Below, one piece after another: positions 1,825 through 38,981 of a stretch of 64,000 bases of DNA; the first letter of the stretch is position 1, and every line of letters starts with the position of its first letter. Location: contig NZ_CP092827.1 in the NCBI RefSeq assembly GCF_022533585.1, positions 249,001-313,000 of the forward strand. The letters are read 5' to 3'. The stretch comes from Pseudomonas sp. LS.1a (GTDB lineage: Bacteria; Pseudomonadota; Gammaproteobacteria; Pseudomonadales; Pseudomonadaceae). The translations under genes and the position numbers were made by a program. The notes under the pieces are model-generated. The model was given only the letters and a program-made list of their open reading frames with translations, did no database searches and was not told the origin of the DNA.

Positions 1825-4148
<2,324 letters not shown>

Positions 4149-12820: not shown

Positions 12821-13303
12821 TTAGTCGCGCCAGTGGCGCTTGTGCTTGCGGTGGCCGTAGTGGTGGCCACGGTCCCAGTGGCGACGGTCGTCGTCATAGC
12901 CACGACGGTAGCGGCGGCCATCGTGGTAATCGTCTCTGTCGGCCTCTTTACCCATGTAGTTACCCAGTGCGCCACCGGCGCCACCGCCGGCTGCCGCGCC
13001 AATGTAGCTACCGGTAGTGCCGCCCATGGAGCGGCCGACCACGTTGCCGCCTGCGGCGCCCAATGCGCCACCGATGGCTGCCTCACCACGCTGGTGCTTG
13101 TTGGCACCGACTGCACTGCCAGCTGCGCCGCCCAGGCCAGCGCCGATCGCGCCGCCTGTGCTACCACCAATGGACTGGCCTACGACAGAGCCCAGTACCC
13201 CACCCAATGCGCCGCCAATGCCGGCCTCGGTGGTGCCGCCTGCCATGGCAACGCCGCTGAGCAAGCTGAAAGACAACAACAGTATCGAGGAGTACTTCTT
13301 CAT
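12821..13303 (-). CDS. secreted glycine-zipper protein
   Basis: A 160-residue predicted exported protein. The signal peptide is MKKYSSILLLSFSLLSGVAMAGG. It is followed by about 100 residues of Gly/Ala-rich zipper repeats (GIGGALGGVLGSVVGQSIGG, IGAGLGGAAGSAVG, IGGALGAAGGNVVG) and then a charged His/Arg/Asp tail (DRDDYHDGRRYRRGYDDDRR...KHKRHWRD). Glycine zippers usually insert in or span a membrane, as in 17-kDa surface-antigen-like proteins. The ATG is supported by GAGG 10 bases upstream. There is no lipobox, so it is not a lipoprotein. Function unknown. Confidence 0.8.
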   Translation of the reverse strand: MKKYSSILLLSFSLLSGVAMAGGTTEAGIGGALGGVLGSVVGQSIGGSTGGAIGAGLGGAAGSAVGANKHQRGEAAIGGALGAAGGNVVGRSMGGTTGSYIGAAAGGGAGGALGNYMGKEADRDDYHDGRRYRRGYDDDRRHWDRGHHYGHRKHKRHWRD

Positions 13304-13385
13304 CAAGAGAGCCTCATAGGGATGACGAGGCGAATTTGAGCCTTGCAGGCGCGCCTGGCAACGGAAATCCGACGAGTAACACGAC

Positions 13386-13502
13386 TTGTACACAATTCTC
13401 TAACTTACTGTATTTACTATGAAACTTTATCGTTTTTTCGCTGTCTGAGCTCTTTATGACGAAGCCCTGAACCGCTATGGAACAGGGCTTTTTTGTTTTT
13501 TG
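13386..13502 (+). ncRNA. possible small RNA ending in a terminator
   Basis: GCCCTG (13464-13469) and CAGGGC (13483-13488) form a hairpin followed by TTTTTTG and more T, oriented on the plus strand. No plus-strand gene precedes it: the neighbour at 13303 starts leftward and the oxidoreductase ends leftward at 13621. A weak promoter-like pair, TTGTAC (13386) and TGTATT 17 bases later, would give a transcript of about 80 nt. The rest of the 317-base gap holds only the REP doublet. Confidence 0.3.
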
Positions 13503-13513
13503 CGGTAGGGCTT

Positions 13514-13610
13514 CCGGCCTCTTCGCGGGCACGCCCGCTCCCACAAGGTAAAGCACAGGAATCGAAACATGTGGAGTTCCTGTGGGAGCGGGCGTGCCCG
13601 CGAAGAGGCC
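13514..13610. repeat. REP doublet, GGGCACGCCC subtype
   Basis: Inverted copies of CTTCGCGGGCACGCCCGC and complement, between the candidate small RNA terminator and the 3' end of the oxidoreductase gene. Confidence 0.85.
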
Positions 13611-36715: not shown

Positions 36716-36784
36716 ACTCAATGAGTTATGTGCAGTTCTATGAGAGCCCGGCTTGCCGGCGATGGGCCGCAAAGCTGCCCCATT

Positions 36785-36991
36785 TCACCTGGGGCCAGCC
36801 TCTTGCACGCGATCAATCGGCTTCTCCAGCCGGTCCTCGAAACTGTCCCAGTCCTCACCAAACAGTTCCACCGGGTGCATGGTCCGACTCGCGCCATTGC
36901 CACAGGCCAACGCCTTGGCCGGGCAGTACAGGTCGCAGCCCCAGCAGATGCGCTCCGGGTGGCCGGGGTTTGTGGGGAATTTCTTGGCCAT
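36785..36991 (-). CDS. DUF3079 small cysteine-rich protein
   Basis: A 68-residue protein. The block KFPTNPGHPERICWGCDLYCPAKALACGNGASRTMHPVELFGEDW is characteristic of DUF3079, with four closely placed Cys (C17, C20, C24, C31) suggesting a metal or cluster site. GGAAG lies 9 bases before the ATG. Function unknown. Overlapping plus-strand frames here have no ribosome site or family features. Confidence 0.8.
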   Translation of the reverse strand: MAKKFPTNPGHPERICWGCDLYCPAKALACGNGASRTMHPVELFGEDWDSFEDRLEKPIDRVQEAGPR

Positions 36992-37156
36992 GGTCAGCTT
37001 CCCTCTGAACTATGTCCCCAACCTATACCTCGGTCCGCTATTCAGCTTGATCGGCATCAATGTCCCGGTGACCTTCAGCAGAGCGTATATTCCGGATCCA
37101 GAAATCTGTTTGACCTAGCACTTGCCCAATACCTAACGATTCGACAGGTGACAACC

Positions 37157-37630
37157 ATGAAGCGGGATAAAACCGAAGCTAATGGACTAGATGCCTTCAT
37201 CGCCAATATTTCACCCATGCTGGATGGCCTGAACGCCCAGATGGCAACCATGGCCCAGCTACTTGCTGCCTGCCATGACCCCATCAAGGACGATGCTGAA
37301 CTCCAGGCGCGGATGGCATTGATCGATGAACTCTACTCGCATGCCGACAGCGAGGGTCACGCAGCTGCGCGTTTTGCGGAGATGGTGGCGGATCGTGTCT
37401 ACGAGTATGAGAGTGAGTCGGTACTCGTGCCGTTTGCGAGCCAGGCCGAAGCGTTGGCCTTCCTGCTGTCGGACAGGGGCGTGAAGCAGAAGGACCTTGC
37501 CTCGATAGCAACCCAGAGTGCGGTTTCAGAGATTTTGAACAACAAGCGGAAGATGACGGTTGCCCAGATCAGGGGCTTTGCTGAGTTTTTCAGCGTACCG
37601 GTTGAGTTTTTCATGCATGGGGTGGTTTGA
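37157..37630 (+). CDS. HigA-type antitoxin-like regulator, no adjacent toxin
   Basis: A 157-residue cytoplasmic protein. A helical N-terminal part is followed by a C-terminal helix-turn-helix (about residues 103-150): AFLLSDRGVKQKDLASIATQSAVSEILNNKRKMTVAQIRGFAEFFSVPVEFFM, as in HigA antitoxins of HigBA modules. AGGTG lies 8 bases before the ATG. The 165 bases upstream hold no HigB-like gene and downstream is a terminator then tRNA-Thr, so it is an orphan or a stand-alone regulator. Confidence 0.75.
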   Translation: MKRDKTEANGLDAFIANISPMLDGLNAQMATMAQLLAACHDPIKDDAELQARMALIDELYSHADSEGHAAARFAEMVADRVYEYESESVLVPFASQAEALAFLLSDRGVKQKDLASIATQSAVSEILNNKRKMTVAQIRGFAEFFSVPVEFFMHGVV

Positions 37631-37885: not shown

Positions 37886-38134
37886 CTACCAGCCGCGATG
37901 GATGGTGGTGACGCTCGGCTCGGTTTTGCCCGGGTTGAAGAACAGCTTGTCGTTGTCGCAGCCGCGCTTGCGGCAGGGGCTTTCGGTGCGCAGGGGCAGG
38001 CCGTTGTCGCCGCCCAGCTGCATGCCGGGGTGGTTCCAACCCAGGCTGCTGCTGGGGTGGGGAGCGGTGCCGCTGGCGCAGCCGGTCAGGGCCAGGGTGA
38101 GGGTCAGCAGGGCGAGGGGCTTGGTCTGGGTCAC
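37886..38134 (-). CDS. small lipoprotein
   Basis: An 82-residue predicted lipoprotein. The signal TQTKPLALLTLTLALTGC has a clear lipobox (LTG-C, lipidated Cys at about residue 18), then a mature part of 65 residues with two close Cys (SPCRKRGCDNDKLFF) that may form a disulfide. The GTG start is chosen to place the signal peptide at the N-terminus; no strong ribosome site is visible. Function unknown. Confidence 0.7.
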   Translation of the reverse strand: MTQTKPLALLTLTLALTGCASGTAPHPSSSLGWNHPGMQLGGDNGLPLRTESPCRKRGCDNDKLFFNPGKTEPSVTTIHRGW

Positions 38135-38293
38135 GATGGTCGGGTCCGTTAGTCCATGTCGGTTCTGGCGCAACGCCAGAAGGTCGCGAGGCTGGCGGGC
38201 AGCGCGCGACGTCACTTTTTAATGATTTGGGGGGCGGATGATACACCGTTGGGCGGGATCAGCGGTGGGGCTTTAGCTTTTTGTTGCCTGTGC

Positions 38294-38388
38294 TGGCCTC
38301 TTCGCGGGTAAACCCGCTCCCACAGGGATATCACTGTTCTCAAGCCTTGTGTGATTCCTGTGGGAGCGGGTTTACCCGCGAAAGGGCC
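38294..38388. repeat. REP doublet, GGGTAAACCC subtype (REPIN A)
   Basis: Inverted CTTCGCGGGTAAACCCGC units around a spacer reading GATATCACTGTTCTCAAG. The whole unit including spacer reappears inverted at 40489. Confidence 0.9.
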
Positions 38389-38442
38389 ATCAGCTGTACG
38401 AAGATTCTGAACTTTAGGGCTAACAGCTTCAGGGTTTGGTGG

Positions 38443-38700
38443 CTTCGGAACTATCCTACGCGCGCCGCCGAAGTATCGCTGTTGTGGGGGAAATGGCTCA
38501 CGGATACCGTTTTCGGGTCGCTCTGGCGACCGGGTGTGAGAACCCAAGTCGAATAAGCGCTACCCCTTTTTGGTGGCCGTACGTGGGCAGACTTCGGTCT
38601 GGCCGGGCTTCCTTATTCGACCGGTTTCTCACCCCGCGTACGGCTGCCACCCAAATCCGTGAGAAAGATTTCTGGCAGTCCCTTCCCCGAGTAAGGATAT
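38443..38700 (+). ncRNA. pseudoknot-forming structured leader upstream of DUF3077 gene
   Basis: Hairpin 1 is GGTCGC-TCTG-GCGACC (38516-38531). Helix A is GTCGAATAAG (38548-38557) with CTTATTCGAC (38612-38621), extended outward by 38532-38544 with 38623-38635 (TGAGAA/TTCTCA plus G-C pairs and single bulges). Helix B is GCCGTACG (38576-38583) with CGTACGGC (38637-38644), extended by GGTG/CACC (38572-38575 with 38648-38651). B opens inside A and closes outside it, so the two helices cross. Between them sits CAGAC-TTCG-GTCTG (38588-38601). The element ends about 55 bases before the DUF3077 start. It could be a cis-regulatory leader, a free RNA, or a repeated DNA element. Confidence 0.6.
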
Positions 38701-38705
38701 ATGCC

Positions 38706-38981
38706 ATGAAGAAAACCATCATCGAACCCATCACCACCGCAGGCGTGGAAACCTTCCTCGCAGCCGGCAACCCATCCCTCAATCTGCTACGCGTCGAGCC
38801 CGGTGTCCCCGTCGATGCTGCCTACGAGCATGTCTCGATCCTGATGGGCTACATCAAGCACCTGGTGCGCGAGGGGGATATGGAGGATGACCATAAATTC
38901 CTGGGCGCCGCCGATTATCTGTGCGACATGGCCAAAGCGCTGATGAACGATATCGAGATTGCCAAGAACAAGGCGCATTGA
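38706..38981 (+). CDS. DUF3077 family protein
   Basis: A 91-residue cytoplasmic protein of the Pseudomonas DUF3077 family: MKKTIIEPITTAGVETFLAA, then LLRVEPGVPVDAAYEHVSILMGYIKHLV and a helical end FLGAADYLCDMAKALMNDIEIA. AAGGA lies 11 bases before the ATG. The open frame continues upstream without a stop to 38436, but that stretch is the structured element and has no family similarity. Function unknown. The structured leader may control it. Confidence 0.82.
   Translation: MKKTIIEPITTAGVETFLAAGNPSLNLLRVEPGVPVDAAYEHVSILMGYIKHLVREGDMEDDHKFLGAADYLCDMAKALMNDIEIAKNKAH

Follow-up and report, generated by a model that had tools for sequence, protein, structure and literature searches.

The structured element at 38443-38700 of the window, the whole 64,000-nt stretch of Pseudomonas sp. 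LS.1a DNA that was analysed, is very probably a chromosomal C4 antisense-RNA switch placed in front of a DUF3077 gene. This reading draws on the fold of the element, its antisense and target words, the position of one target word on the ribosome-binding site, co-variation, synteny and copy number, all of which are seen in the DNA itself. A preliminary description had recognised no named RNA class in the element, which a scan of the window against Rfam corrects: 38566-38654 (+) match RF01695 (C4 antisense RNA) with 75 bits against a cut-off of 45. The same description had rightly placed a DUF3077 gene downstream, and the 91-aa ORF at 38706-38981 (+), the putative target, matches PF11275 with 57.2 bits against a cut-off of 21. 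Upstream, 38504-38550 resemble the a1, b1 targets of C4 antisense RNA (RF03163) at a relaxed threshold, scoring 20 bits against a cut-off of 46.7. RF03163 leaders lie just upstream of 17 of the 19 C4 RNAs in the LS.1a genome (10 above and 7 below the cut-off), and at E up to 1 the family also matches 9 of 14 control genomes, never above the cut-off. Taken alone, the window element is an ordinary member of the C4 class.

All parts of the cassette lie on the forward strand. A promoter-like site found by eye, with TTGTGG (38482-38487) and TACCGT (38505-38510) separated by 17 nt, is a candidate start. A sigma70-like TTGnnn-N17-TAnncT pattern precedes the leader hairpin in 49 of 101 cassettes, these being the ones that the rule could anchor, of which one was anchored wrongly (L049) and none is the window copy (L004). 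The leader hairpin GGTCGC-TCTG-GCGACC (38516-38531) falls within the RF03163 match and is followed by upstream copies of two target words: a1 (GTGAGAA, 38536-38542), a perfect 7-nt complement of the antisense word a', and b1 (GTCGAATAAG, 38548-38557), a perfect 10-nt complement of the antisense word b'. The C4 RNA has the stems P1 (38571-38587/38633-38649), P2 (38588-38592/38597-38601) and P3 (38602-38606/38621-38625). Word b' lies in the P3 loop (38610-38621), where TCCTTATTCG pairs with the downstream target word b2 and CTTATTCGAC with b1, and word a' (TTTCTCAC, 38625-38632) lies between P3 and P1. Downstream follow a2 (GTGAGAAA, 38659-38666), a perfect 8-nt complement of a', and b2 (CGAGTAAGGA, 38688-38697), which covers the Shine-Dalgarno sequence, complements 10 nt of b' with one G-U pair and ends 8 nt before the ATG of the DUF3077 gene. 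Stem P3, the downstream target copies a2 and b2 and the promoter-like site at 38482-38510 had all been overlooked in the preliminary description.

A further inverted pair in the window, 38497-38505/38655-38663, is used by the predicted fold. It was set aside because the promoter-like site contains its first arm and because it is not intact, as judged by eye, in the paralogous loci L102-L105. Just upstream of the cassette, at 38290-38394, stands an inverted repeat (GCGGGTAAACCCGCTCCCACAGG and its mirror) which I take to be REP-like, and matches to miRNA families at 38276-38406, all below their cut-offs, were discarded, as they fall on this repeat. Elsewhere in the window, Pseudomonas sRNA P34 (RF02405) was found at 13200-13596 (+) with 87.6 bits against a cut-off of 44. 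The C-terminal part of an ORF at 36728-37630 (+) that adjoins a tRNA-Thr resembles by eye a HigA-type helix-turn-helix antitoxin. ARAGORN called a tRNA-Asp at 37970-38053 (+) which is absent from the Rfam scan and overlaps a protein-like ORF on the opposite strand; this call is probably false.

The helices on which the preliminary description was built are present in the window: a crossing helix of GTCGAATAAG (38548-38557) with CTTATTCGAC (38612-38621), a second helix of GCCGTACG (38576-38583) with CGTACGGC (38637-38644), the hairpin CAGAC-TTCG-GTCTG (38588-38601), and the leader hairpin in front. In terms of the C4 fold, the crossing helix is b1/b', lengthened by a1/a', while the closing stem P1 contains GCCGTACG/CGTACGGC and the UUCG hairpin is P2. 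The GGTG/CACC extension proposed for the second helix lies outside the conserved register; GGTG pairs into TGCC instead, because the closing stem of C4 is 38571-38587/38633-38649. These helices had been called far more than chance. They are indeed unlikely to arise by chance, yet not impossibly so: dinucleotide-preserving shuffling of 38443-38700 gave a perfect 10-bp helix in 134 of 5000 sequences, and in 11 such a helix was crossed by a perfect 8-bp helix. Shuffles alone thus leave chance possible, and it is comparative evidence that decides whether the helices are real.

Comparison across genomes does so clearly for the C4 stems. In an alignment of 37 C4 RNAs (all 19 from the LS.1a genome and 18 from other Pseudomonas genomes), 97.2% of the cells of P1, P2 and P3 are paired, and 19 of the 27 pairs show changes on both sides. 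Such both-side changes occupy 113 cells; the shuffles give 26.7, and not one of 500 reaches the observed value. When the register is slid, 33-43% of cells pair. The signal comes from P1 and P2; P3 is the weakest stem, with 90.8% of its cells paired and both-side changes in one of its five pairs. A model built from this alignment (R1), with the window copy in its training set, gives 83.6 bits for the only convincing copy in the window; its other match there, with 12.9 bits, lies on the opposite strand of the same place. The structured regulatory RNA with compensating arm changes that had been proposed is thus borne out, both in the co-varying C4 stems and in words that vary together, b1 and mostly b2 following b'.

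What does not survive is the riboswitch, or self-contained pseudoknotted non-coding RNA, that the preliminary description had suggested and that I now regard as extremely improbable. Its crossing helices do exist, and only 1 of 200 shuffles folds as well as the element (z -3.25, with a program that does not predict pseudoknots). The RNA belongs to a known class by Rfam, however, and the crossing helix is an antisense word paired with one copy of its target, the same word having a second partner over the ribosome-binding site just before the gene. The paired word moreover varies widely among cassettes and its partners follow, which a ligand pocket would hardly permit. The C4 match and the double partner of b' together led me to drop the riboswitch class.

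The words were followed through 101 C4 RNAs by seeking ungapped complements of a' and b'. In LS.1a, a perfect 7-nt a1 lies upstream of all 19 C4 RNAs and a perfect 7-nt a2 within 30 nt downstream of 18, while b2 extends over 8-14 nt in 17 of the 19 (5 nt in L011 and 6 nt in L017). Across all cassettes, b2 reaches at least 8 nt in 85 of 101, and GGA, AGG or GAG lies inside b2 in 85 of 101. An ORF was found for 95 of the cassettes and begins 2-9 nt after b2 in 83 of these, a count that is not fully independent, as starts were sought downstream of b2. Cognate pairing exceeded non-cognate pairing in all four sets examined, both for b'-b2 and for the summed downstream pairing of a' and b' (0 of 10000 permutations each).

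By the summed ungapped runs of a' and b', the target next door ranked first for 17 of 19 C4 RNAs in LS.1a, for 24 of 30 in genome G049 (30 of its copies being used), and for 24 of 27 in a genus sample made up of the best-scoring C4 RNAs, which has one locus in common with G049. The figure was 10 of 26 for orthologue-type loci, which share their words by descent and in which a' is almost invariant (266 of 10000 permutations as high). When a duplex energy that tolerates bulges was used instead, the own target came first in only 9 of 19 (LS.1a) and 11 of 30 (G049); in my opinion this measure separates cognate targets worse because bulged duplexes with the common anti-Shine-Dalgarno core score well everywhere. 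The a2-b2 pattern of the window, written as one degenerate string, occurs once in the LS.1a genome, at its own gene. C4 words are self-addressed, with a strictness that depends on the measure.

In the mechanism that I infer from this arrangement, a single promoter at about 38482-38510 would give rise to a transcript that runs from the leader with a1 and b1 through C4 and the words a2 and b2 into the DUF3077 gene. The C4 part would fold into a three-stem RNA and, by analogy with what has been reported for phage P1, be released by an RNase P cut at the 5' end of P1, just before G38572, where a GG is found. The freed C4 RNA, about 78 nt long if it reaches to the end of P1, would dock with a' on a2 and cover b2, and with it the ribosome-binding site, with b', leaving the DUF3077 mRNA untranslated; its words would mostly fit their own gene better than the genes of sister cassettes. 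In the uncut transcript, a1 and b1 would pair with the same a' and b' words and form the crossing helix described above. Most likely they would then compete for C4 within the transcript, restrict the amount of free C4 and in this way set a threshold for escape of the gene. This is the least certain step of the mechanism. A competitor is preferred because the IsrK leader of Gifsy-1 opens translation by pairing downstream; alternatively, a1 and b1 may be a second repressive target, by analogy with seqA in P4.

The closest known arrangement is the C4 locus of phages P1 and P7 (RF01695 with an RF03163 leader), whose strand and gene order are like those of the window. It has the same P1/P2/P3 fold, the same a' and b' words, a2 and b2 downstream and b2 on the ribosome-binding site (features of P1 per PMC5320573 and the Rfam names). 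It also has a1 and b1 upstream, which in the window are recognised by their complementarity, the RF03163 score there being below the cut-off. As summarised for P1/P7, RNase P cleavage at the 5' end of P1 leaves a phage C4 of about 77 nt, in which a' confers specificity while b' blocks the ribosome-binding site (PMC5320573). The C4 of P1 controls icd/ant, whereas the target here is a DUF3077 gene, or a DUF6124 gene in sister cassettes, and unlike the phage copy the C4 described here is chromosomal, sits at a conserved site and occurs in up to 54 copies per genome. The window does not carry the immI module (c4-icd-ant) of P1/P7 with its antirepressor: the downstream gene is DUF3077, and the first gene was of Bro-N or antirepressor type in 3 of 74 cassettes scanned.

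The chromosome of Acinetobacter baumannii likewise holds many C4-type RNAs, namely 21 Group 1 C4-like sRNAs with variable a' that are expressed and apparently processed at a GG motif (PMC5320573). What sets the Pseudomonas copies apart is that most have an adjoining, fitting target, that a single gene family recurs and that the antisense words vary together with their targets. The IsrK-orf45-anrP locus of Salmonella Gifsy-1 has in common with the window a leader RNA, a downstream complement and a small ORF whose start is controlled, the short IsrK leader pairing with a downstream complementary stretch to open translation (PMC4825925). The window differs from Gifsy-1 in having no RF01394 match (none at 38200-38760 up to E = 1), and a terminator-like string is rare in LS.1a cassettes (2 of 19). 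The CI RNA of P4 with seqA and seqC, which resembles C4 by its description, is also an antisense RNA processed from a leader, with complements on both flanks (PMC4825925); CI acts on transcription termination (PMC4825925), while b2 here lies on the ribosome-binding site.

The attenuator-like part of such systems is distributed unevenly. A terminator-like string precedes C4 in 52 of 94 viral loci, 15 of 26 loci of the genus sample (without L041), 6 of 30 in G049 and none of 26 orthologue-type cassettes, and is not found before the window copy. The isrK RNA (RF01394) overlaps a1b1 and reaches towards C4 in three phage-type loci of seven scanned (60.0 and 55.2 bits, and 48.8 bits in phiAH14b, below the cut-off of 50); the Rfam scan gave no isrK at the Bro-N locus L029 or at the compact loci L013, L016 and L060. 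In Burkholderia, C4 is found in one transcription unit with isrK (PMC4603805). I infer that the attenuator was lost in the domesticated form of C4.

The history of the window copy can be followed at one chromosomal site. A protein search with the DUF3077 product returned 31 Pseudomonas loci and one spurious locus, and C4 lies upstream of the gene in 30 of the 31, L108 being the one without. In 16 loci the neighbours on both sides are those of the window, namely tRNA-Thr and a lipoprotein-like ORF on one side and methyltransferase and ABC transporter genes on the other, and two more (L094 and L101, whose contigs begin nearby) have the neighbours of one side. Species with a cassette at this site include P. 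pudica, P. juntendi, P. putida, P. monteilii, P. parafulva and P. fulva, and the DUF3077 locus of KT2440 presumably lies in the same neighbourhood. The element had been thought a mobile or recurring cassette. It does recur with DUF3077-type genes, but the window copy does not look mobile, since it is found at the same place in several species of the P. putida group; the C4 type is also found in phages and in a satellite-like genome.

Coevolution at this site was assessed in 15 loci, the window copy and 14 of 18 same-site loci (L094, L106, L107 and L116 being left out). The core of DUF3077 has a mean dN of 0.022 and a mean dS of 0.587 (dN/dS 0.037, 104 of 105 pairs usable); the product is thus under purifying selection and has a function. 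Word b' occurs in six types, b1 matches it in all 15 loci (7-10 nt), and b2 scores at least 9 in 11, the exceptions being L090 (7 nt), L096 (best match over the start codon), and L097 and L098 (weak, 5.3 and 6.9). Within a group of three of the six types, covering 10 loci, a word pairs about equally well with its own b2 and with the b2 of the other two types. The word of L096/L099 scores 8.9 on its own b2 against 4.4-6.4 on others, and the words of the other group score 4.3-4.8 on the b2 of L096/L099. The word of L090 fits other b2s as well as its own, and no other type fits the b2 of L090 (4-5 against 7). It is mainly between the three-type group and L096-L099 that the word has clearly been replaced. 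The site has therefore seen a few replacement events and no continual rewriting, and where the word changed its partners have mostly changed too. At the paralogous loci L102-L105 the words are quite different and, as judged by eye, again match on both sides. The preliminary description had held that its element would fall if homologues were lacking or if their paired arms varied without compensation; at the same-site and paralogous loci, it stands.

Two of the loci at the window's site, L106 and L107, have a longer gap between C4 and DUF3077, which in L106 holds a DUF6124-like gene (3714-3980). From these loci, the single-gene form of the window may be a deletion of a two-gene cassette.

These observations also bear on whether the cassette is a dead remnant of a prophage immunity region, a very improbable reading. 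C4 is typical of phages, some sister cassettes have short first ORFs, and a few genes beside LS.1a cassettes have PHROG matches to families without a known function, two of these being strong. A remnant would hardly sit at a single chromosomal site among ordinary genes, show a dN/dS of this order over the 15 same-site loci, or keep its words mostly complementary. When 41 of the 64 ORFs around the 19 LS.1a cassettes were scanned, Pfam returned mostly ordinary enzymes and one transposase. PHROGs returned seven families with one ORF each: five are of unknown function, among them two with E values of 2e-98 and 1e-55, and the other two are a transposase and an alcohol dehydrogenase. A few LS.1a cassettes may thus have phage neighbours.

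Searching Pseudomonas genomes for homologous copies, as had been proposed, turned up many. The LS.1a genome (5.75 Mb, one contig) has its 19 C4 RNAs all above the cut-off. Among 59 Pseudomonas genomes (LS.1a included), 54 have a C4 match, 53 have one above the cut-off, 37 have ten or more and the highest count is 54; a separate scan of G049 gave 55, three of them below the cut-off. Among 229 genomes drawn evenly from the class, C4 was found in 12 (LS.1a included) and elsewhere never in more than four copies, by class-wide scans whose stricter filters lose weak matches. Over the 59 genomes, 1005 C4 matches (E <= 0.001) stand beside 231 DUF3077 and 682 DUF6124 matches, and C4 number follows the sum of DUF3077 and DUF6124 with a Spearman coefficient of 0.93, a value for which related genomes are not independent data points and a single protein may be counted in both families. 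Where C4 is absent, in five genomes, DUF3077 and DUF6124 are absent too. Of the 14 DUF3077 matches in LS.1a, 12 have a same-strand C4 within 500 nt upstream, another has one at 1781 nt, and the last has none; linkage is looser for DUF6124, as 3 of 8 listed matches in G049 have no C4 nearby (by eye). Two C4 cassettes of G049, L075 and L076, lie about 1 kb apart with similar genes and are likely a tandem duplication, a route of expansion.

C4 and c4-a1b1 are listed by Weinberg 2010 (PMC2864571), who according to PMC5320573 already predicted C4 in Pseudomonadales; the Pseudomonas copies as such were therefore known. Among the titles listed from open-licence PubMed Central full text, none had C4 copies in Pseudomonas chromosomes, or C4 with DUF3077/DUF6124, as its subject. 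This is a known RNA class in an unusual setting, and it is the genus-wide, largely self-addressed and protein-linked multiplication that stands out.

The proteins behind the switch are little described: in open-licence PubMed Central full text, one paper was found by the name DUF3077 and none by the name DUF6124. A Pfam scan covered 74 first genes; from the 101 cassettes 77 such genes were taken, without most of the orthologue-type loci, and three of these were dropped. Among the 74, DUF6124 was found in 30 and DUF3077 in 11, three have Bro-N, one has a weak DUF1480 match and the rest have no match. Profile comparison joins DUF3077 and DUF6124 with a probability of 93, and some proteins match both. 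Matches to phage antirepressors in PHROGs occur in 3 of the 74, likely from the three Bro-N genes, and 8 of the 74 match phrog_36471, a family of unknown function. In L006, L008, L011 and L017 of LS.1a, C4 precedes a short first ORF (43-51 aa, against 80-87 aa in the sisters L005, L010 and L016), and a DUF3077 match follows within 400 nt; by analogy with icd or orf45, the short ORF may be a leader coupled to the second. Two DUF6124-like proteins filed under Pantoea sp. (P0139 and P0141) are 66% identical to the Pseudomonas query, and their genomes are possibly mislabelled.

If the DUF3077/DUF6124 protein were harmful, the cassette would be a type I-like toxin-antitoxin or growth-arrest module with C4 as the antitoxin RNA, which I consider unlikely, with a real chance of being right. 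A gene for a small protein whose ribosome-binding site is covered by an antisense RNA is what such a module would look like; Icd of P1 blocks cell division (PMC8201110), and the protein controlled by the IsrK locus is toxic (PMC4825925). Against this, the PADLOC defence library matched none of the 74 first genes, and a sequence-profile search of the PDB gave no convincing relative (best E 0.052 for the DUF3077 profile and 0.12 for the DUF6124 profile), findings with which toxicity is still compatible. A 275-bp DUF3077 gene of P. putida, annotated as a pseudogene, regained its open frame in a furfural-tolerant evolved strain (PMC9630843), which is unlike the loss of a toxin. The window gene, at 276 bp, could be an orthologue of this pseudogene.

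Phages provide the other context for C4. A phage-type C4 region of 501 bases has matches in 33 phage records, and in 31 of these the host is P. aeruginosa. In phage PAJU2, C4 precedes a gene annotated as anti-repressor Ant, and in phiAH14b it lies in a satellite-like genome of 16.8 kb with integrase, AlpA and primase-type genes; the DUF3077 protein of the window itself has no match among INPHARED phages. Two exact core patterns, which miss diverged phage copies, retrieved 94 distinct C4 RNAs from viral contigs, with a2 in 87 and a1 in 90. The gene that follows often encodes a protein of about 52 aa and is often DUF6124/DUF3077-like (by eye, and some contigs may include host DNA).

The many chromosomal C4 RNAs might be an anti-phage memory bank, acting in trans to silence the antirepressor mRNAs of phages or satellites that enter the cell, an idea raised for Acinetobacter (PMC5320573). 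C4 does serve phage immunity, Pseudomonas phages carry it, and a' words are common to chromosomal and viral copies. Set against the 94 viral targets, however, a match at cognate level was found for 1 of 19 C4 RNAs in LS.1a and 1 of 30 in G049, where chance would give 1.3 and 0.85, respectively, with b' permuted among cassettes, or 0.2 and 0.45 with shuffled letters, and most C4 RNAs fit their own adjacent gene. The memory bank is thus unsupported by these 94 copies and appears improbable.

If the switch reading is true, removing C4 or altering the words of a cassette should make the protein appear. On a wider scale, and more tentatively, it is quite possible that Pseudomonas has domesticated a phage C4 and multiplied it into a genus-wide set of up to about 50 self-addressed and largely independent gates per genome, each before its own DUF3077/DUF6124 gene and kept by selection while the words diverge, with little cross-talk. 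The proteins would then be regulators that serve the host, perhaps derived from phage lysis-lysogeny operons, and would be released gate by gate. An RNA familiar chiefly from phage immunity, C4 is present in hundreds of copies within a single bacterial genus, and its counts follow one little-studied protein superfamily, DUF3077/DUF6124, on which it offers a regulatory handle. The cassettes are also a natural collection of diverged antisense-target pairs with which to gauge the evolution of antisense specificity.
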